A DNA stretch of 39,039 bases from Oscillospiraceae bacterium. Its GTDB lineage: Bacteria; Bacillota; Clostridia; Oscillospirales; JAAYXM01. Shown here one piece after another: positions 18,846 through 33,130 of this stretch. Both the position numbers and the translations under genes were made by a program. The notes below the pieces were generated by a model. That model worked only from the letters and a program-made list of their open reading frames with translations, was not told the DNA's origin and made no database searches. The DNA lies in assembly GCA_017559985.1 (NCBI GenBank), contig JAFYPW010000063.1, forward strand, positions 1-39,039, given 5' to 3'. Numbering within the stretch: the stretch's first letter is position 1; every line of letters begins with the position of its first letter.

Positions 18846-19490
18846 ATGAAAAGCAAAAAGCTTGTTTTAACAATCTGTTTTTTCGTTATGTTTGCGGCGG
18901 TGAATGTCTACGGCGCGGGCGTTTATAAACGCGGAAGCCGCGGAGAAACCGTCACAAAAATTCAGAGTGTGCTTCAAAGCGAGGGGCTTTATACGGGAAA
19001 CATTGACGGAATCTACGGTGAGCGGACGGAAGACGCGGTTTTGAGGTATCAGGCGCGCGAGGGACTCCGCGAGGACGGAATTGCAGGGCGCGAGACGCTC
19101 TCGCATATGGGGCTTATAAGCGAGGCGGAGAGTGTCACGGAAAATGACCTTTATCTGCTTTCGCGAATAATCTCCGCCGAGGCGCGCGGTGAGCCGTATC
19201 TCGGTCAGGTTGCCGTCGGCGCGGTTATAATGAACAGAGTGCGTCACCCGTCGTTTCCGAACACGATTGCGGGAGTAATTTACCAGAACGGCGCATTCTC
19301 TGCCCTTTCCGACGGTCAGTTTGACGAGCCGATTTCAGAAGAGTCGCGCCGCGCCGCGCGGGATGTGCTTGCAGGCGTTAACCCCGTTTCCGGCGCGATA
19401 TATTACTATAATCCGCGCACGGCGACGAACCGGTGGATAAGAAGCCGCCCCGTCGTCCGCGAAATCGGCGGTCACGTGTTCTGCACATAG
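18846..19490 (+). CDS. sleB: SleB-like spore cortex-lytic / cell-wall hydrolase
   Basis: The 214-residue protein has a signal peptide (1-23, cleavage near VYGA), a peptidoglycan-binding_1 domain (about 29-88; LYTGNIDGIYGERTEDAVLR) and a C-terminal Hydrolase_2/SleB domain (about 106-214) with the likely catalytic Glu112 in SAEARGEP and the NRV motif at 130-132. SleB is a lytic transglycosylase that breaks spore cortex peptidoglycan in germination, so the gene suggests a spore-former; a vegetative wall role is also possible. No ypeB partner follows. A TGTATA/TAGAATA pair at 18785-18815 vaguely resembles a sporulation-sigma promoter, but this is weak. The stop overlaps the 3' end of the convergent lysR gene by 19 bp. 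Confidence 0.85.
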   Translation: MKSKKLVLTICFFVMFAAVNVYGAGVYKRGSRGETVTKIQSVLQSEGLYTGNIDGIYGERTEDAVLRYQAREGLREDGIAGRETLSHMGLISEAESVTENDLYLLSRIISAEARGEPYLGQVAVGAVIMNRVRHPSFPNTIAGVIYQNGAFSALSDGQFDEPISEESRRAARDVLAGVNPVSGAIYYYNPRTATNRWIRSRPVVREIGGHVFCT

Positions 19491-21976: not shown

Positions 21977-23380
21977 CTAGAACAGAGAAGGAACATCTCC
22001 GCCGTTCTTTAAAATTTCAAAGCACGAGATAAGGTTTTCCATCTCGGAAACGCCGACATAGAAATCGGGGGTTTTGCCGTCAATACTTGCGGCATACTGC
22101 CGCTCGTTCATGCGGTGCAGTGAAAGCGTGGAGGTTTTTCCTCCTTTAAGACGCGCCGTAAGCGTGAGTGCGGGCGTTGTTTCGTATTTTTCTCCCATAA
22201 ACTCGCCTGCCGCGGTAAAGCGGACGGAGTGCAGGAAGAGATTTTTCGCGTTTTCGCCTGAAATCTCGCCGCCGTCGTATTTCCCCGTGAGGGTGTTGTC
22301 GCTGACGGAGAGCGAGAGCGTGTGGTGCGCGTCGGGGAGATTGTAGACAATCTCCGAGACCTCTTCTGCCGTATAGAACCATATAAGCGGGAAGATGATG
22401 TCAGAAAGGCTTATGTTTTTAAAGTCGATTGTTTTTTCCGTGAGGAGGACGCTCGGAATGCCCTCAACCATAACATATGTCCCCTCACCGCCGTCGGCGT
22501 CGTTTCCTATAAGAAGCGTAACGGACAGCTTATTTGTTTTAAATGAGAGTCGCGACGGAGAGGCAAGGCCGTATTTTGCAAGGTCACGCGGGCGGTCCTC
22601 AACGAGGCTTTTTGCGCGTATGTCCCGCACCTTGTCAAGCAGGAGTGTCTTCACCGTGTCGGGGTTGGTTTCAGCTTTGACGGGGCTTTCAATCTTATAG
22701 TCGGTTGAGATGACCTTGTTCTCCGCGATTTCCTTGTCCGTCTTTCGCACAAGGGAGACGGTTTTCTTTCCCGGTCGCGAAAGCGTTACGGAAGAAAGCG
22801 GCGTCTCCTCGGGAATTTCGGGGAAAAGCTCGATGTTGCGAAGGTTTTCCTTTACGGTAAAGAGAAAGTCGCGGCTCATTCCGCCGACGGACCAAACCGT
22901 GTCGCCGTCTGACCGTTTTACATAAACGCCTTCACCGACGGGGAGAGCGTCGCCGACGAGAAGAGTCTGCACCTCGCCGTTTTTAAGTGTGAAGCGCACC
23001 TCGCGGCTCGGATTTTCAAAGCCGAAGTTTCCGTCGTCTGTGCCGATTTCTTCGCGCGCGGCAAGAGTTGAAAGGTAGTTTATGACGGAAAACATCTTCG
23101 TCTCGTCAAACGGAAGAAGTCCGTCCTCTCCGCGCACCGACGCGGTTGTTTTGTTCGTCATATCAAGTGAGAACGGAGAAAGACTGCCGCCGAGAAAGTC
23201 AACGCTTTTAACATCCGCAAGGTCGATGTCAAGAATTTCTATCGTCTCGGACATTTCAAGACCGGGAATCTCAATGGGCGGAGTCTCTTTTTCGGGGAGA
23301 AGCTTTACCGTTATGAGCGCGGCGGCGGCAAGAATAACAAGGACAACCGCCGTTATGATAACAGGCTTAAACTGTTTCAT
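21977..23380 (-). CDS. DUF4340 family membrane-anchored protein
   Basis: The 467-residue protein has one N-terminal membrane anchor (about 4-25) and a large extracytoplasmic part containing repeated beta-rich DUF4340 units, seen as recurring EEIGTDDGNFGFENPSREV-like and LAKYGLASPSRLSF-like segments. DUF4340 proteins are regularly encoded beside GldG-type ABC transporters, as here, but no activity is established. The ATG at 23380 has AGGAGG 8 nt upstream; the longer frame from 23404 adds eight residues without family support. It is the last gene of the four-gene ABC cluster, 57 bp after the GldG-like gene with a hairpin between them. Confidence 0.85.
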   Translation of the reverse strand: MKQFKPVIITAVVLVILAAAALITVKLLPEKETPPIEIPGLEMSETIEILDIDLADVKSVDFLGGSLSPFSLDMTNKTTASVRGEDGLLPFDETKMFSVINYLSTLAAREEIGTDDGNFGFENPSREVRFTLKNGEVQTLLVGDALPVGEGVYVKRSDGDTVWSVGGMSRDFLFTVKENLRNIELFPEIPEETPLSSVTLSRPGKKTVSLVRKTDKEIAENKVISTDYKIESPVKAETNPDTVKTLLLDKVRDIRAKSLVEDRPRDLAKYGLASPSRLSFKTNKLSVTLLIGNDADGGEGTYVMVEGIPSVLLTEKTIDFKNISLSDIIFPLIWFYTAEEVSEIVYNLPDAHHTLSLSVSDNTLTGKYDGGEISGENAKNLFLHSVRFTAAGEFMGEKYETTPALTLTARLKGGKTSTLSLHRMNERQYAASIDGKTPDFYVGVSEMENLISCFEILKNGGDVPSLF

Positions 23381-23402
23381 ATAAAAAACCTCCTGTAAAC
23401 AC

Positions 23403-23429
23403 AAACCTTCCCGATGACAGGGAAGGTTT
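23403..23429 (-). terminator. Intercistronic hairpin between the GldG-like and DUF4340 genes
   Basis: A 10-bp stem AAACCTTCCC/GGGAAGGTTT with a 7-nt loop lies in the spacer. On the coding (minus) strand the following tract GTGTTT is only partly U-rich, so it may lower rather than stop transcription, or protect the upstream mRNA. Confidence 0.5.
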
Positions 23430-23437
23430 TGTTGTTT

Positions 23438-24868
23438 TTATCTGTTCTTTCTTCTTATAAACACGAAAATCCCTGCCGCAAAGAAGAGAAGCGGGATAAT
23501 AGCGATTAAAACAATTCCGAGAAGAGTTACAGCTCCCTCTGTTATATAGAGAGAGTAGACAGACTCAACCTTCGGCGCAATCTGCACGGTGAGCGTGTCG
23601 GGGTTTGCGTAGTCTACCACCTGCGTGAAGAACGAGCTGTTAAACGCGCGGGAGACAGAGGAAAACTCCTCCATTGCAGCCATCGACGAGCCGAAGGCGA
23701 AAACGCGGGAAGTACCCTTTTTGCCGACTGCTTCAAGCGCGCGCTCGGCAACTGCCGCCGTCGTGAACGGGCCGGAGACATCGCCACTCTCGCGGTTAAA
23801 CGACGAAATCTTGTTGTCCGCGGAGAGAAGCTTTCCGAAGCTCTCCTTTGAAGACTCTGAAAGCGGGAGCGTGCGGAGATAGCCGAGGCCCGCGTCGGTA
23901 AGGTTTATCGGGCGCGTTCCGGGAGAGAGAAGTGAGAGCTGACCAACGCTTGCGGGGTCGACGACCTCGTCGGAAACGACAGACACAACAACCGTTGCCG
24001 CACTCTGGTATGAGTTTGTCTCATCGCAGATGATATACGGAGAGAACTCAAAGCCCCACTCGGCAAGGTAGCGTTCAAGCACCGGAAGCGCGGGCACCTG
24101 TGAGCCCCAGAGCACATAAAGACTTGCGCCGTCACGAGAGAGGAACTCTTCAAGATTTGCAATCTCCTCTGCCGTGTAGTCAACGCTCGGAGAAGAGATT
24201 ACGAGGTTGTCAATTTCCTCTGAAACGGGAGAGGCAAGGTCAACTTCGTTTGTCCGAAAGTTGTTTCCCTCAAAAATTGTCAGAAGCGCAGAGGGAGAAA
24301 CTTCGCCGTGGCCACGGACAAAGCCTGCCGCCGCAACACCGTCTGACGAGACGTGTGCAATCGCGGCTGTTATAAGCTCCTCGCTCTGGTAATACTTTTT
24401 GTTCTGGTTTCCGCCGAGCGTGTATGCAAATTCAGAGCTCTGCACAACGGTGTAGCGGTATTTTCCCTCGATTACGAGCGCCATCGCGTCGGAGTTTATC
24501 GCCTTTGGATATTTCTTGAAAAACTGCGGGTTCTTGTTCGGGTCGATAAATTCATATTTAACCTTTCCACCCGACGCGGCATTGTAGCGCTGGATGGTTT
24601 CAAGCGCGGGCTTTGAAACATCGCCCTTTTCCATCTCGGCACGGGTTGAGAGGATGTAGATATTCACATCGTCGGAAAGCGAGGAAAGAAGCTTTTCTGT
24701 CTGTTCGGAGAGAGTATATTTTCCCTCCTCGGTAAGGTCAAACTTCAAATTGAAGCGGTCTCCGAGGTATCCCGCAAAGAGGTTGAAGATTATAACGGCG
24801 GCGACGAAGAGCGCCGTGAAAACGGCTGCTGCCGCGCCGTATTTTATTTTTCTTGAATTAAACTTCAT
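23438..24868 (-). CDS. GldG-like ABC-associated membrane protein
   Basis: The 476-residue protein has an N-terminal membrane helix (about 12-35), the segment FDLTEEGKYTLSEQTEKLLSSL that is typical of GldG/ABC_transp_aux proteins, a long extracytoplasmic domain, and a C-terminal membrane helix (about 446-470) ending in RRKNR. In Bacteroidetes GldG forms an ABC complex with GldA and GldF for gliding; in clostridia the same family has no known substrate or role. It lies 14 bp after the permease gene with a ribosome-binding site in the gap, in one operon with the ATPase and DUF4340 genes. Confidence 0.88.
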   Translation of the reverse strand: MKFNSRKIKYGAAAAVFTALFVAAVIIFNLFAGYLGDRFNLKFDLTEEGKYTLSEQTEKLLSSLSDDVNIYILSTRAEMEKGDVSKPALETIQRYNAASGGKVKYEFIDPNKNPQFFKKYPKAINSDAMALVIEGKYRYTVVQSSEFAYTLGGNQNKKYYQSEELITAAIAHVSSDGVAAAGFVRGHGEVSPSALLTIFEGNNFRTNEVDLASPVSEEIDNLVISSPSVDYTAEEIANLEEFLSRDGASLYVLWGSQVPALPVLERYLAEWGFEFSPYIICDETNSYQSAATVVVSVVSDEVVDPASVGQLSLLSPGTRPINLTDAGLGYLRTLPLSESSKESFGKLLSADNKISSFNRESGDVSGPFTTAAVAERALEAVGKKGTSRVFAFGSSMAAMEEFSSVSRAFNSSFFTQVVDYANPDTLTVQIAPKVESVYSLYITEGAVTLLGIVLIAIIPLLFFAAGIFVFIRRKNR

Positions 24869-24882
24869 TCTTCCCGCACCTC

Positions 24883-25587
24883 CTATGACCAGCGGCGCTT
24901 TTCGATAACGCGGGTTGTGAAGAAGAGGAAAAGCACCGTAAGGCTTACAAAATAAATCGCGTCAGAAAGCGAGAAAACGCCCCCTGAAAAGTCGCGGTAT
25001 CTTGTGATTATGGAGAGAAATCTCGAAATTCCTGAAAGCACCTCAGACGTTGTTGCCTGGAAGATGAGGTCGAGGAAATAAAATGCGGAGAGCGTGAGCA
25101 TTGAGAGGAGAGCCGAGATAATCTGGCTTTCCGAGAGCGAGGACATAAACTGCGAAACTGCGATATATGCCGCCGCGGCAAGGATTATTGCGATATAGTT
25201 TCCGACCGTCACGCCGACGTCAAGCGTGCCGAAGGCGTGTGTCAGAATCGGATAGATAAGCGTCACACAAAGTGCAATTAAAAAGAGCATGAGCGCGGCA
25301 AAGAACTTGCCGAGCACAATCTCGCCGACATTTATAGGAGCGGTGAGGAGAAGCTGGTCGGTTTTTTGCTTTTTCTCTTCGCTCCATATCCTCATCGTAA
25401 CGAGCGGGATGAGGAAAATCATCGCGACGAGCATATTGCTGAAAACGTGGCGGAAGTCGCTCTGATACTGCGAGATGGAGAGAGCGAAATATAAAAGTCC
25501 CGCAAGGAGAGAAAACGCGCCGCAGAAAACCCAGCCGTAGCCGCCTGTAAAATATGCGCGAAGCTCGCGCCTGAAAATTGCTTTCAT
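24883..25587 (-). CDS. ABC-2 type permease (GldF-like)
   Basis: The 234-residue protein is an ABC-2 membrane subunit with about six membrane segments and the early motif FRRELRAYFTGGYGWVF. A cytoplasmic stretch MRIWSEEKKQKTDQLLLTAPI (near 66-85) matches the family's conserved coupling segment. The start ATG overlaps the ATPase stop by one base (TGATG), indicating translational coupling. With the ATPase it would form an exporter or a mechanically acting complex whose extracytoplasmic partner is the GldG-like protein. Confidence 0.9.
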   Translation of the reverse strand: MKAIFRRELRAYFTGGYGWVFCGAFSLLAGLLYFALSISQYQSDFRHVFSNMLVAMIFLIPLVTMRIWSEEKKQKTDQLLLTAPINVGEIVLGKFFAALMLFLIALCVTLIYPILTHAFGTLDVGVTVGNYIAIILAAAAYIAVSQFMSSLSESQIISALLSMLTLSAFYFLDLIFQATTSEVLSGISRFLSIITRYRDFSGGVFSLSDAIYFVSLTVLFLFFTTRVIEKRRWS

Positions 25588-26510
25588 CAGTTTTCCCCTC
25601 CTTTGTTTGTAAGCCGTGCAAAGATTGATTCAAGAGAAGACTCTGCTTTTGCAAAGGAGAGAAGCGGAAGGTTTTGCTCCGCCGCGGCAAGGAAGACGTC
25701 TTTTCTTATGTCAAGCCCTTCTTTTGCCGTGATGATATATTTCTTTCCCGGTTTTGAAACGTCAAGCACGCCCGCAATCCCCGCAAGGCAGGCGATTGCG
25801 ACGTCTTCGTCGCCGTCAATTTCAGCTTCGTATCTGTTTTCTCCGCCGAGATCCTGCATAATCTCCTCTGTTTTTCCGTCGGCAACGATTTTCCCCTCGT
25901 TTATAACGACGATGCGCGTGCAGACGGCAACAACCTCGGGGATGATATGCGTTGAAAGGATGACCGTGTGGTCTTCGCCGAGGCTTTTTATGAGATTTCT
26001 TATCTCGACTATCTGGTTCGGGTCAAGGCCGACGGTCGGCTCGTCAAGGATGAGCACATCCGGGTCGCCGATGAGCGCCTGCGCAATGCCGACGCGCTGG
26101 CGATAGCCCTTGGATAAGTTCTTTATAAGGCGAGCTCTTACGTCCGAAAGCCCGACACGCGCGCAAATATCGCTTATGTGCTCCTCCTTTTTCTGGGTTG
26201 CGCGGCGAAGCTCGTAGACAAAGTTTAAATACTCGTTTACCGTCATATCAAAGTAGAGCGGCGGCTGTTCGGGGAGATAGCCAACGTGCCGTCTTGCTTC
26301 ATACGCGTCGTCGAGCACGTCAAACCCTGCGATTGAGGCGCTTCCGCCGGTTGCAGAGAGATAGCCCGTGAGCATATTCATAGTGGTTGACTTTCCTGCG
26401 CCGTTCGGGCCGAGAAAGCCGACAATTTCACCTTTTGATACGCAGAACGATATTCCGCGGACAGCTTCCTTTGAGCCGTAGCGCTTTGAAAGGTTTTTAA
26501 TCTGTATCAT
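25587..26510 (-). CDS. ABC transporter ATP-binding protein (GldA-like)
   Basis: The 307-residue ATPase has Walker A GPNGAGKST (34-42), the ABC signature LSKGYRQRV (near 134), Walker B LILDEP with D-loop GLDP, and the switch His in STHI. The last 80 or so residues form an extra C-terminal domain as in CcmA/DrrA/GldA-type exporters. It is the first gene of the cluster; the ATG at 26510 is preceded by AGGAGAGG, and TATACT with no good -35 box lies about 30 bp upstream. The order ATPase-permease-GldG-DUF4340 is a recurring one in Firmicutes. Confidence 0.92.
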   Translation of the reverse strand: MIQIKNLSKRYGSKEAVRGISFCVSKGEIVGFLGPNGAGKSTTMNMLTGYLSATGGSASIAGFDVLDDAYEARRHVGYLPEQPPLYFDMTVNEYLNFVYELRRATQKKEEHISDICARVGLSDVRARLIKNLSKGYRQRVGIAQALIGDPDVLILDEPTVGLDPNQIVEIRNLIKSLGEDHTVILSTHIIPEVVAVCTRIVVINEGKIVADGKTEEIMQDLGGENRYEAEIDGDEDVAIACLAGIAGVLDVSKPGKKYIITAKEGLDIRKDVFLAAAEQNLPLLSFAKAESSLESIFARLTNKGGEN

Positions 26511-29647: not shown

Positions 29648-29684
29648 TTATATCACTGCCTTTTGAATATACTATATCTAAAAA

Positions 29685-29713
29685 ATTTTATCGTATTTTG
29701 CCCAAAAAGTCAA
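29685..29713 (-). promoter_or_regulatory. hisS-aspS promoter
   Basis: On the minus strand, TTGACT (29713-29708), a 17-bp spacer and TAAAAT (29690-29685) lie 37 bp before the hisS ATG. The leader is too short for a T-box. Confidence 0.85.
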
Positions 29714-29740
29714 GAGTTTGAGCCGTTTTGCAAATTTTTC

Positions 29741-29770
29741 TTGACAAGGGATTTTCTGTCGTGCTATACT
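29741..29770 (+). promoter_or_regulatory. Promoter of the gntR-ABC operon
   Basis: A perfect TTGACA (29741-29746), an 18-bp spacer and TATACT (29765-29770) stand back to back with the hisS promoter. Confidence 0.9.
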
Positions 29771-29771
29771 A

Positions 29772-29796
29772 ACTGTACTAATACAAGTAATACAGT
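29772..29796. promoter_or_regulatory. YtrA/GntR-type operator overlapping the transcription start
   Basis: A 25-bp imperfect palindrome with perfect 6-bp outer arms ACTGTA (29772-29777) and TACAGT (29791-29796) and inner TACTAATAC...GTAATAC symmetry starts one base after the -10 box. It should block the promoter when bound and is the natural site for autoregulation by the GntR protein encoded just downstream. Confidence 0.75.
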
Positions 29797-29818
29797 TGGA
29801 GAACGGGGAGATGAGACT

Positions 29819-30199
29819 GTGATAAATCTTGATTTCAAAAGCGGGAAAACCATACATGAGCAGATAGAAGAGGGCATAAAAAGCCTTATAATCAGCGGTG
29901 TTCTTAAAAAAGACGAAAGACTTCCGAGTGTGCGCGAGCTTTCGCTTTCGCTTACGGTAAACCCCAACACGGTACAGCGGGCATACCGCGAGCTTGAAGC
30001 GGGCGGGTTTATCAGGAGCATCAAAGGAAAAGGAAACTTTGTTCTCGGAGCAGGCGGGAAAGACCGTGCGGACAAGGCGGAAAAGGCATATGAGCGCCTG
30101 TGTCGCGCCGTGCGCGAGCTTTCATTTCTCGGTGAGGAGAAGAAAGACATACTTTCCGCGATTGAGGAAATATACACGAAAAAGGAGGGCTCTTTATGA
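29819..30199 (+). CDS. GntR-family regulator, YtrA subfamily
   Basis: From the GTG at 29819 the protein has 126 residues: a GntR winged helix (about 5-72; IHEQIEEGIKSLIISGVLKKDERLPSVRELS, then NPNTVQRAYRELEAGGFI) and a short helical C-terminal tail, the size and layout of the YtrA subfamily. GGGGAG lies 8 nt before the GTG. The ATG at 29811 runs into a stop after three codons, and the longer frame from 29663 would cross the promoter, so both are rejected. YtrA-type regulators repress ABC operons and often respond to cell-envelope stress. The stop overlaps the ATPase start (ATGA). Confidence 0.9.
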   Translation: MINLDFKSGKTIHEQIEEGIKSLIISGVLKKDERLPSVRELSLSLTVNPNTVQRAYRELEAGGFIRSIKGKGNFVLGAGGKDRADKAEKAYERLCRAVRELSFLGEEKKDILSAIEEIYTKKEGSL

Positions 30200-31095
30200 T
30201 AAAGGTTACGGGTGTAACGAAATATTTTGACGATTTTAAAGTGCTTGACGATGTATCAATGCACGTCCGCCGCGGCACGATTTACGGGCTTGTCGGCCCG
30301 AACGGCGCGGGCAAGACAACGCTTATAAATCACATAAACGGCTGTCTTATCCCGAAGTCGGGAGAAATAAGTATTGCTGGCGAGCCTGTTTTTGAAAACG
30401 AGAGCATAAAGAAAAAAGTGCAGAACATCTCCGACGACTGGTTCTATTACAGCACATTTACCGTCCGAGAGATGGCGCAGTTCTACCGCGACATCTACCC
30501 CTCTTTTTCTTCCTCGCGCTATGAGGCGATAAAGGAGATTTTCAAGATAGACGAAAAGCGGCAGATAAGAAAGCTTTCAAAGGGAATGAAGAAGCAGGTC
30601 GCGTTCTGGCTTTCTCTCTCCGCGTGCCCCGAGGTGCTCATCCTCGACGAGCCGCTCGACGGGCTTGACCCCGTTATGCGAAAGCAGGTTTTAAGCCTTG
30701 TTATTGCCGACACTCTCGACCGCGAGATGACGGTGCTTGTGTCGTCGCACAACCTGCGCGAGCTTGAAGACATCTGCGACTGGGTGGGGATTATCCACAA
30801 CGGGCGGATGATACTCGAAAAAGAGCTTTCCGACCTCAAAGGCAGTGTCCACAAATATCAGCTTGTGCTTGACGAGGCAGCACGAAAGGCACTCTCGGAG
30901 GATAATAACATTCTCCATATATCCCACACAGGCTCGGTTTACAGCATAATCGTCCGCGGGGATGCAGACGAATGCACAAAACGCTTTTCCGTTTTGTCGC
31001 CCGTGCTTTGCGAGAGAATAAGCTTAACGCTTGAAGAGGTTTTCATTTATGAGTTGGGAGGGCTTGGATATGACTTTAAAAACATCATTGTTTAA
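30196..31095 (+). CDS. ABC transporter ATP-binding protein (YtrB-like)
   Basis: The 299-residue ATPase has Walker A GPNGAGKTT (34-42), the signature LSKGMKKQVAF (near 144), Walker B LILDEP and D-loop GLDP, and the switch His in SSHNL. The C-terminal 80 residues are variable. It overlaps the gntR stop by 4 nt and its own 3' end overlaps the permease start by 26 nt, so the three genes form one coupled operon. Homologous units are envelope-stress or lantibiotic-response exporters in some Firmicutes; the substrate here is unknown. Confidence 0.92.
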   Translation: MIKVTGVTKYFDDFKVLDDVSMHVRRGTIYGLVGPNGAGKTTLINHINGCLIPKSGEISIAGEPVFENESIKKKVQNISDDWFYYSTFTVREMAQFYRDIYPSFSSSRYEAIKEIFKIDEKRQIRKLSKGMKKQVAFWLSLSACPEVLILDEPLDGLDPVMRKQVLSLVIADTLDREMTVLVSSHNLRELEDICDWVGIIHNGRMILEKELSDLKGSVHKYQLVLDEAARKALSEDNNILHISHTGSVYSIIVRGDADECTKRFSVLSPVLCERISLTLEEVFIYELGGLGYDFKNIIV

Positions 31096-33130
31096 CCGCG
31101 GAATATATAAGTCCACAACGAAAAGATACATATGGGGCTTGGTTTTCTATTTCCTTGTTCTTTTTATGACAACCGTGCTTCCCATCCTCTTTTCCGGGGA
31201 CACGGAGAGTAAGCGGTATCTTCTCGCCGAGACGCCGCGCTCGCTCATTTTAGACGATGTTTATATCTACTTCCCTATGGTTTTCGCTCTTTTCGTGCCG
31301 ACGGTGACAGCGCTTCTGGTCTATCGGTTTGTCCATTCAAAAAAGTGTGCGGTTTTCTCCCACAGCCTGCCTGTTTCAAGGCGCGCAAACTACATAACAA
31401 CCGTGCTTTCCGCGCTTACGCTTATGTGCGCTCCGATAATTTTAAACGGCGCGATACTCTCGGTTATGTCGGTTTCGGGATATGGCGCGCTGTTTGATTT
31501 TTCATCGTGCCTTGTCTGGACGGGTGTTAACCTGCTCACCGTCTTTCTTATGTTCTCGGTCGCATCAGTTTCCGCGCACCTTACCGGAAACAGTTTTGCG
31601 ATGGTTGGGATAAATGTGCTTATCCACCTTATCGCAATAATCTTTGCGGCGGGCTTTTCAACACTTGCAAACACGTTCCTCTATGGCTACCACGAGGTAA
31701 ATGCGCTTATAAACCGTGCGGTTGAATGGAATTTCGCAGGCTTTATCACAAGCCTTGTAAGCCGATTGCGATATTTTCCCGAGGGCGTCATTTTCAGCGC
31801 GGGAAGACTTGTTATAATGCTTGTTTTTGCGCTTGTTTTATACATTGCGGCATACCTTCTCTATAAAAAACGCCGCATTGAAACGGCAGAGGATGTTGCG
31901 GCATACAGAATCCTAAACCCGATTTTCAAATATCTCCTCACAACCCTCGTCGCGCTCGGAACATTTGCGATTTTTGCAAATATGCTCGTCGACGGTGCGG
32001 CATTTCCGATTATAATAACGGTAATTCTTTCCTTCGTTGCATATTTTGCGTCTGAGATGGCGCTTAAAAAGAGCTTTAAGATCTGGCGCGCCTGGCGCGG
32101 GTACGCCGTGTTCGTGTTGGTGTTTGCCGCAGTCGTCTCCGCTTTTGCGTTCACAAGCTTTTTCGGGTATGAAACGAGAGTGCCCGAAGCGGATAATGTC
32201 AAAAGCTTTGCCGTTTATGAAAACGAATCGGGCGAGATTTCTGACCCGTTTGTTGAGGACACAGTCCTCACAGAATATCTTACGGAGAAGCACCGCACAT
32301 TTGCCGAGCGCGAGGATAAGGGAGTTGTGCGGACATACACACAAGAGAAACCGCGCGCTTTGTTTATAAAGTATAAGCTTAAAAACGGCGACTCTATGAC
32401 GCGCCGCTACTATATGAGCGAGCGGGAGTTTTGCGAGATTTTAGACCGCATGTATGAAAGCGAGAGCTATAAGCTGAAAAATACAGACATATTCTCGGAT
32501 GTAATTAAAAATATCCGCGACGTGCAGTTTAACAATGTCGATATTTCTGTTTCGGGAAAAGACGCCGAAGGCATTGTCGACGCCATCCGGCGCGACCTTC
32601 TCGCACTCAAATTCACCGAGAGCCGTATGGAAGGTGCTGCGTGGGAGACACGGCTTCATATTGAGTATGAAAGGGCGTACGGTGAGAGCGAGGAATATAA
32701 CCCGTATATGATACACACGATAAGCCAGAGAGTTAACGCAAACTATAAGAACACGCTTTCATACTTACAGGAAAAGGGGCTTTATGACAAGCTCTTCAAT
32801 GCAAACAACACTTCTCTTACCGTGTTGACTTATAAGCAGTGGCAGACCTTTGCCGATAAAGAAAAAGAGCTTCTTGAATTTGCATCGGGAGAGAAGATGA
32901 CGGTTGATGTCGGCGAGATGAGGATGATAGAAAACATCCCCGGCGCGGTGAAGATTACCGACGATGCGACAAAGCAGAAAATCCGCGAGTTTGTCCTCAA
33001 AACCCCTGTGAGGTATGTTCCCGACAAGGAATTTTCATACTTTGTCTGCACGGTAAACGAGGGCGGATATGTAGTCGCGATTGCTGCGTTCTATGAAGAC
33101 GGAGAAAAGCTCCTTGAACTTATAAAATAA
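31070..33130 (+). CDS. Large ABC permease with C-terminal soluble domain
   Basis: The 686-residue protein has about ten hydrophobic segments in its first 375 residues, including KYLLTTLVALGTFAIFANML and RGYAVFVLVFAAVVSAFAFTSFFG, followed by some 310 mostly hydrophilic residues (about 380-686) with no motif I know. The ATG at 31070 has GGGAGGG 7 nt upstream and lies inside the ATPase gene; the longer frame from 31031 is not supported. It is the membrane partner of the preceding ATPase. The large C-terminal part could be an external sensing or substrate-binding domain. A terminator follows. Confidence 0.85.
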   Translation: MTLKTSLFNRGIYKSTTKRYIWGLVFYFLVLFMTTVLPILFSGDTESKRYLLAETPRSLILDDVYIYFPMVFALFVPTVTALLVYRFVHSKKCAVFSHSLPVSRRANYITTVLSALTLMCAPIILNGAILSVMSVSGYGALFDFSSCLVWTGVNLLTVFLMFSVASVSAHLTGNSFAMVGINVLIHLIAIIFAAGFSTLANTFLYGYHEVNALINRAVEWNFAGFITSLVSRLRYFPEGVIFSAGRLVIMLVFALVLYIAAYLLYKKRRIETAEDVAAYRILNPIFKYLLTTLVALGTFAIFANMLVDGAAFPIIITVILSFVAYFASEMALKKSFKIWRAWRGYAVFVLVFAAVVSAFAFTSFFGYETRVPEADNVKSFAVYENESGEISDPFVEDTVLTEYLTEKHRTFAEREDKGVVRTYTQEKPRALFIKYKLKNGDSMTRRYYMSEREFCEILDRMYESESYKLKNTDIFSDVIKNIRDVQFNNVDISVSGKDAEGIVDAIRRDLLALKFTESRMEGAAWETRLHIEYERAYGESEEYNPYMIHTISQRVNANYKNTLSYLQEKGLYDKLFNANNTSLTVLTYKQWQTFADKEKELLEFASGEKMTVDVGEMRMIENIPGAVKITDDATKQKIREFVLKTPVRYVPDKEFSYFVCTVNEGGYVVAIAAFYEDGEKLLELIK

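Follow-up and report, generated by a model that had tools for sequence, protein, structure and literature searches.

What does an ATP-binding cassette (ABC) cluster of the Gld type do in a Gram-positive bacterium that apparently lacks a gliding machine? The question is raised by contig JAFYPW010000063.1 of an Oscillospiraceae bacterium (order Oscillospirales of the Bacillota; assembly GCA_017559985.1), analyzed here over positions 1 to 39,039 (39,039 nucleotides, nt); this stretch is hereafter called the window. Four genes on the minus strand between positions 21977 and 26510 encode, in addition to an ABC ATPase and a six-helix permease, one GldG-like and one DUF4340 protein. The original prediction, made from the sequence alone, had described them as a Gld-like ABC cluster with a DUF4340 partner, and Pfam matches to all four proteins agree with it; it had overlooked how common the cluster is in the order and that the GldG-like protein contains a GIFT domain. 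DUF4340 is widespread in the order and the four genes mostly occur together, but our literature searches gave no function for it. This Gram-positive setting could be used to ask what a Gld-type ABC transporter does.

Distribution and conserved gene order

Using profile searches, we detected DUF4340 in 225 and ABC_transp_aux/GldG in 215 of the 295 genomes of the order, this genome being included in both counts. Both families are present in 201 genomes and neither in 56 (odds ratio 33.5, p 6.5e-28; Fisher test, which ignores kinship). Because of these frequencies, the view that the cluster is a common module of the order rather than an oddity is well supported. Across 101 genomes sampled from the phylum, 16 had DUF4340, with this genome among the 16. 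None of 14 well-known control genomes had it, and PF09822 matched two of them (Synechococcus elongatus and Haloferax volcanii). The listed matches to the GldF profile belong mostly to metagenome-assembled genomes of Oscillospiraceae and Ruminococcus; isolates among them include Ruminococcus albus 8, R. bicirculans 80/3, R. flavefaciens YL228 and Marasmitruncus massiliensis.

The survey of gene neighbourhoods that had been suggested for DUF4340 was made on 141 loci: the window, 60 loci around DUF4340 matches and the 80 best of at least 588 confirmed matches to the GldF profile. The order ATPase-permease-GldG-DUF4340 (A-F-G-DUF4340) is unbroken in 127 of them, which describes adjacency given presence, since DUF4340 or GldF had served to select the loci. 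Two further loci have A-F-G without DUF4340 behind it and 12 have neither arrangement; several of these 14 end at the edge of a sequence stretch. In the 15 loci from elsewhere in the phylum, GldG and DUF4340 genes are adjacent in all 15, the ATPase gene lies ahead in 14, and the permease gene was called in 11 by a simple picker of open reading frames (ORFs). Second copies of gldG and the DUF4340 gene in one genome, sometimes nearby, were also observed (loci L092 and L100; genomes G221, G200 and G245).

Layout of the cluster and its two predicted outer proteins

The ATPase carries all four motifs sought (Walker A, LSKG, Walker B and the H-loop), and its gene overlaps that of the permease at the TGATG noted before, the stop/start context being CTGATGA. 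Hydropathy analysis revealed ten windows merging into six regions in the permease, two regions (residues 13-31 and 452-470) in the GldG-like protein and a single one (residues 7-25) in the DUF4340 protein. About 420 residues of GldG and about 440 of DUF4340 are thus left on the same side of the membrane, about 860 in total, in line with the predicted 850 or so; this side is presumably the outside. The GldG-like protein matches Pfam DUF7088 (4.8e-13) and ABC_transp_aux (1.2e-13) and passes the PF09822 gathering score (51.4 against 34.7 bits), and the DUF4340 protein matches PF14238 in two stretches (125.5 bits against a gathering cut-off of 25). The positions of these features are collected in Table 1.

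Table 1. Features of the Gld-like cluster in the window (TM, transmembrane helix; AF2, AlphaFold2).
Feature	Position	Strand	Evidence
GldA-like ABC ATPase, 307 amino acids (aa)	25587..26510	-	PF00005 (ABC_tran) 1.7e-32; NCBIfam GldA 337 bits; ABC motifs
GldF-like six-helix ABC-2 permease, 234 aa	24883..25587	-	PF13346 (ABC2_membrane_5) 3.6e-9; NCBIfam GldF 131.3 bits; alignment A3; hydropathy
GldG-like protein, 476 aa: TM, thioredoxin-like DUF7088, GIFT domain (~178-428), TM	23438..24868	-	PF23357, PF09822; AF2 model; IFT52 Z 23.3
57-nt gap with stable hairpin before the DUF4340 ribosome-binding site	23381..23437	-	RNA fold -18 kcal/mol
DUF4340 protein, 467 aa: single N-terminal TM, three homologous domains	21977..23380	-	PF14238 3.6e-36; AF2 model; hhalign

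The DUF4340 gene most likely starts at the ATG at 23380, behind an AGGAGG, rather than at the TTG at 23404 of the longest ORF, and with this start the gap after gldG is 57 nt long. The hairpin in the gap (z -2.69; one of 200 shuffles was equally stable) scored as terminator-like on the plus strand only and not on the operon strand; therefore a single transcript across all four genes is likely but unproven. Of the single leftward operon that had been proposed, the four adjacent minus-strand genes are confirmed. In the compared loci gldG and the DUF4340 gene mostly abut or overlap: the median gap over 138 neighbouring pairs is -4 nt, the overlap being overstated since ORFs were taken from the first possible start. 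Gap counts use matches above 80 bits, and the DUF4340 lengths given below use matches above 60 bits.

The AF2 model of the GldG-like protein has a mean predicted local distance difference test (pLDDT) score of 88.1. Its first domain is thioredoxin-like (Foldseek match to 2ywm, 1.7e-4; profile match to 1a8l, 0.0012), and the top Foldseek match of the model is IFT52 (1.2e-8). When the model was compared with IFT52 by VIA-align, 210 residues were aligned with a root-mean-square deviation (rmsd) of 2.2 (Z 23.3). Comparison with six OST48/WBP1 entries gave Z scores of 17.8 to 21.3 over 245 to 263 residues; the rmsd of 17 to 19 we take to mean differently placed domains, and on the modelled structure the GldG domain probably shares the OST48/WBP1 fold. 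A search of the PDB with the single GldG sequence gave nothing useful. A profile of 52 GldG proteins, using sequence alone, matched IFT52 at 4.9e-10 and OST48 at about 5e-5. Alignments were built from 52 of 56 GldG matches (A1) and 52 of 54 DUF4340 matches (A2), both selected by bit-score floors, as well as from 25 of 44 GldF matches (A3) and 17 of 45 small proteins (A4). In the 52-row GldG alignment, cysteine reaches at most 25% of rows in the columns that align with the window protein, and the conserved catalytic cysteine expected of class I glutamine amidotransferases is lacking. Because of this lack of a conserved cysteine, thiol chemistry and amidotransferase activity both appear unlikely for GldG, as judged from the alignment.

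The DUF4340 protein (AF2 model with mean pLDDT 93.5) is a membrane-anchored chain of homologous domains, numbering three in the window protein and only one in a small number of other phylum members. The homology of the three segments was detected by hhalign with probabilities of 99.4% (first and second), 96.5% (first and third) and 88.6% (second and third). By length, the 155 DUF4340 proteins in the loci fall into three groups: (i) five proteins of 190-210 aa with one detectable unit, (ii) 17 proteins of 250-449 aa, and (iii) 133 proteins of at least 450 aa. Each length is counted from the earliest possible start, and contig ends may have shortened some of the proteins. A unit model found two units in 105 of the 155 proteins and three in 45. 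These counts are rough, as the model overlooks the divergent third unit in the window protein and breaks up units in other proteins. Four of the five short proteins (L182, L185, L186 and L187) have a single Pfam DUF4340 match each; in L186 a wider DUF4340 profile match crosses a stop codon, and this protein may be truncated.

No Foldseek match to the DUF4340 fold was obtained at 0.001 or below, and PDB searches with the single DUF4340 and GldF sequences and with the DUF4340 profile gave nothing useful. VIA-align comparison of the whole protein gave 2mct (Z 6.9, 99 residues, rmsd 3.4), 4q0y (Z 6.3, 106 residues, rmsd 4.0) and a WalK-YycH model (Z 4.3, 93 residues, rmsd 4.0); we claim no kinship to these, as Z scores below 8 may reflect a common arrangement only. 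No function for DUF4340 was found in the open-licence literature, to which all our statements on published work refer, and its function, like the substrate of the cluster, had been called undescribed from the outset.

Candidate role at the cell envelope

The original prediction that the role here differs from gliding is in line with two observations. All three NCBIfam gliding equivalogs score below their cut-offs (GldA 337 against 402.6, GldF 131.3 against 288.5 and GldG 46.9 against 389.85 bits). Also, GldK of the gliding/type IX machine gave no match in this genome, an absence made uncertain by its 85.9% completeness; in the control search for GldK, 4 of 14 control genomes matched, none above the cut-off. 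The GldM profile matched neither this genome nor any control genome.

We tentatively propose that an ATP-driven ABC machine moves an outer module which has no enzymatic activity and works on a glycan of the envelope or on a lipid-linked sugar, a reading we consider plausible though short of probable. The four gene products would join in one membrane complex, in which two GldA-like ATPases would power two GldF-like permease subunits (GldA2-GldF2). Its outer part would consist of GldG, anchored by two TM helices and carrying the GIFT domain behind a non-catalytic thioredoxin-like domain, and of DUF4340, with one TM anchor and three repeats. ATP binding and hydrolysis inside would be transmitted through the permease into movement of the outer part, a mechanism that has also been proposed for ABC machines acting beyond the membrane, such as NosDFY with its ABC-2 layout and outer partner. 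The outer module would then hold or position the glycan or lipid-linked sugar during its placement at the cell surface. The reading is favoured by the gene order across the loci, the joint occurrence of DUF4340 and GldG, the IFT52 and OST48 matches of GldG, its lack of conserved cysteines, the placing of NosY as the closest solved permease and the reportedly essential DUF4340 region of Verrucomicrobium spinosum. The conserved gene order, the predicted folds, the missing conserved cysteines and the failure to find GldK and STT3 in this genome are results, whereas we infer the assembled complex, its subunit numbers, mechanical coupling and sidedness, and the glycan substrate. A glycan or lipid-linked sugar is favoured over lipids or lipoproteins, which we place second, because of the published proposal that the GIFT domain, which joins GldG, IFT52 and WBP1, binds sugars (excerpt of PMC7226087, where Beatson and Ponting 2004 is cited).

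It can further be speculated, as a quite unlikely addition, that DUF4340 serves as a modular spacer, built as a rod from one, two or three repeats of a single domain, and that this rod sets the distance of the GldG head from the membrane. If so, the machine could reach through envelopes of differing depth and couple ATP inside the cell to the placement of surface glycans.

Several observations weigh against the proposed glycan machine. The GIFT fold is also near the GH42 middle domain, ThuA-like proteins and amidotransferase chains (Z 13 to 15) and is therefore widely shared, and an excerpt of PMC5898192 relates GldG to the trimerisation domain of beta-galactosidase, with complex formation suggested rather than sugar binding. 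An OST48-like role is unlikely, since STT3 was not found in this genome; weak STT3 matches were present in 2 of 98 order genomes, one of them just above the cut-off (25.3 against 24.5 bits). The teichoic-acid-type transferase PF04464 was not found in this genome (85.9% complete), and its association with DUF4340 is not significant (24 of 76 DUF4340-positive against 3 of 22 DUF4340-negative genomes, p 0.11). DUF4340 occurs without GldG in 24 of the 295 order genomes and GldG without DUF4340 in 14, which may partly reflect profile sensitivity, differing between the two families, and the incompleteness of many of these genomes. The match of the permease to NosY is weak, and none of the annotated neighbours links the operon to a substrate gene.

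The ATPase itself points elsewhere. Its best solved relatives by profile search are the lipid-moving proteins ABCA3, ABCA1 and ABCA7 (1.1e-63 to 3.6e-59), consistent with a machine at the outer leaflet for the extrusion or sorting of membrane lipids or lipoproteins. The instability of the lipoprotein GldJ in gldA, gldF and gldG mutants of Flavobacterium johnsoniae, given in an excerpt of PMC9870892, argues in the same direction. However, such ATPase similarity is common to many ABC families, and the annotated neighbours include no recurring lipid or lipoprotein gene, one sporulation lipoprotein (locus L184) excepted; we regard this alternative as possible but doubtful. A pump that exports a small toxic compound or a peptide and uses the outer proteins as accessory factors is suggested by a DrrA-like C-terminal domain and by the NCBIfam drrA profile, both below their cut-offs (22.8 against 27.4 and 222.6 against 312.45 bits). 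Such a pump is unlikely, as two outer proteins of more than 400 residues and conservation across an order are generally unusual for efflux systems, and the genes directly next to the cluster in the window, one aspartyl-tRNA-synthetase-like and one aspartase-like, hint at no efflux role.

The neighbouring genes favour no particular substrate. Upstream, a 595-aa gene is found at position -1 in 24 loci and a 421-aa gene at position -2 in 19 loci; those in the window were recognised by eye as aspS and hisS, and other loci have gltX, nusA, infB, rbfA, nrnA, truB and ribF. These are housekeeping genes and give no functional hint. With no constant substrate gene beside the operon, the surface export suggested earlier gains no specific support.

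In 45 loci the DUF4340 gene is followed by a gene for a 93-aa protein (e.g. L104:13928-14206), which matches nothing in Pfam, NCBIfam or the PDB; this genome gave no hit for it. It was rejected as a dedicated fifth partner, being present in 86 of 98 order genomes, namely 20 of 22 without and 66 of 76 with DUF4340 (p 1.0). Flagellin likewise shows no significant link (11 of 76 DUF4340-positive against 7 of 22 DUF4340-negative genomes, p 0.11) and was not found in this genome (85.9% complete). The tests on flagellin, PF04464 and the 93-aa protein used 98 of the 295 order genomes and ignore kinship.

This genome encodes SpoIVA (4.1e-117) and, at 18846-19490 of the window, a SleB-like spore cortex-lytic enzyme (241.9 bits with NCBIfam, where the cut-off is 236.5), which fits a spore former. 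A YhcN/YlaJ sporulation lipoprotein adjoins the operon in one relative from the phylum, at L184. The cluster might thus be a spore-envelope machine active in sporulation; this is highly unlikely, since the presence of DUF4340 is independent of SpoIVA (197 of 225 DUF4340-positive and 60 of 70 DUF4340-negative genomes, p 0.69, with kinship ignored). Elsewhere in the window, ORFs read by eye at 29663-33130 encode a GntR-like regulator followed by a second ABC ATPase, also matching the GldA profile, and a 699-aa membrane protein.

Comparison with known systems

The component families and the old GIFT link are already known. We did not find in print the Gram-positive DUF4340-bearing operon, its distribution or the variation of DUF4340 from one to three domains, nor any functional study of GldG in clostridial, Firmicutes or Gram-positive settings.

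Among the closest known systems is the transporter of F. johnsoniae, whose GldA, GldF and GldG are of the kinds of the first three proteins here. The ATPase signature LSKGYRQR of the window is identical to the one quoted for F. johnsoniae GldA in an excerpt of PMC9127263. The locus tags in that excerpt place gldA apart, whereas here it sits with gldF and gldG. In contrast to F. johnsoniae, a DUF4340 gene follows, the NCBIfam cut-offs are missed and GldK was not found in this genome. Archaeal arCOG01314 proteins, likened here by description only, are reported in an excerpt of PMC5898192 to be GldG-like, with an outer domain and a membrane anchor, and are predicted to act in secretion or membrane remodelling.

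Two proteins share the DUF4340 label with the window protein and are likened to it by family name alone: Verrucomicrobium spinosum VSP_RS39600, whose DUF4340 region is reported essential (PMC12283558), and Pseudomonas aeruginosa PA4040 (PMC8088628), with no function stated in the excerpts of either source. IFT52 and, probably, OST48/WBP1 have the same GIFT fold as GldG together with profile-level sequence similarity, whereas in GldG, the product of an ABC operon, the GIFT domain follows a thioredoxin-like domain and has a TM helix on either side of the pair. The P. aeruginosa genes PA4037-PA4040 we take to be a gldAFG-DUF4340 cluster; no paper naming two of these tags was found.

As for NosDFY, nitrous-oxide genes were not noticed in the vicinity of the operon, though no search was aimed at them. 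NosF is among the more distant matches of the ATPase (2.4e-38), and NosY is the nearest solved permease to the GldF profile, resembling it weakly (E 0.049). The outer partners in the present system are, in contrast to NosDFY, the GldG-like and DUF4340 proteins.

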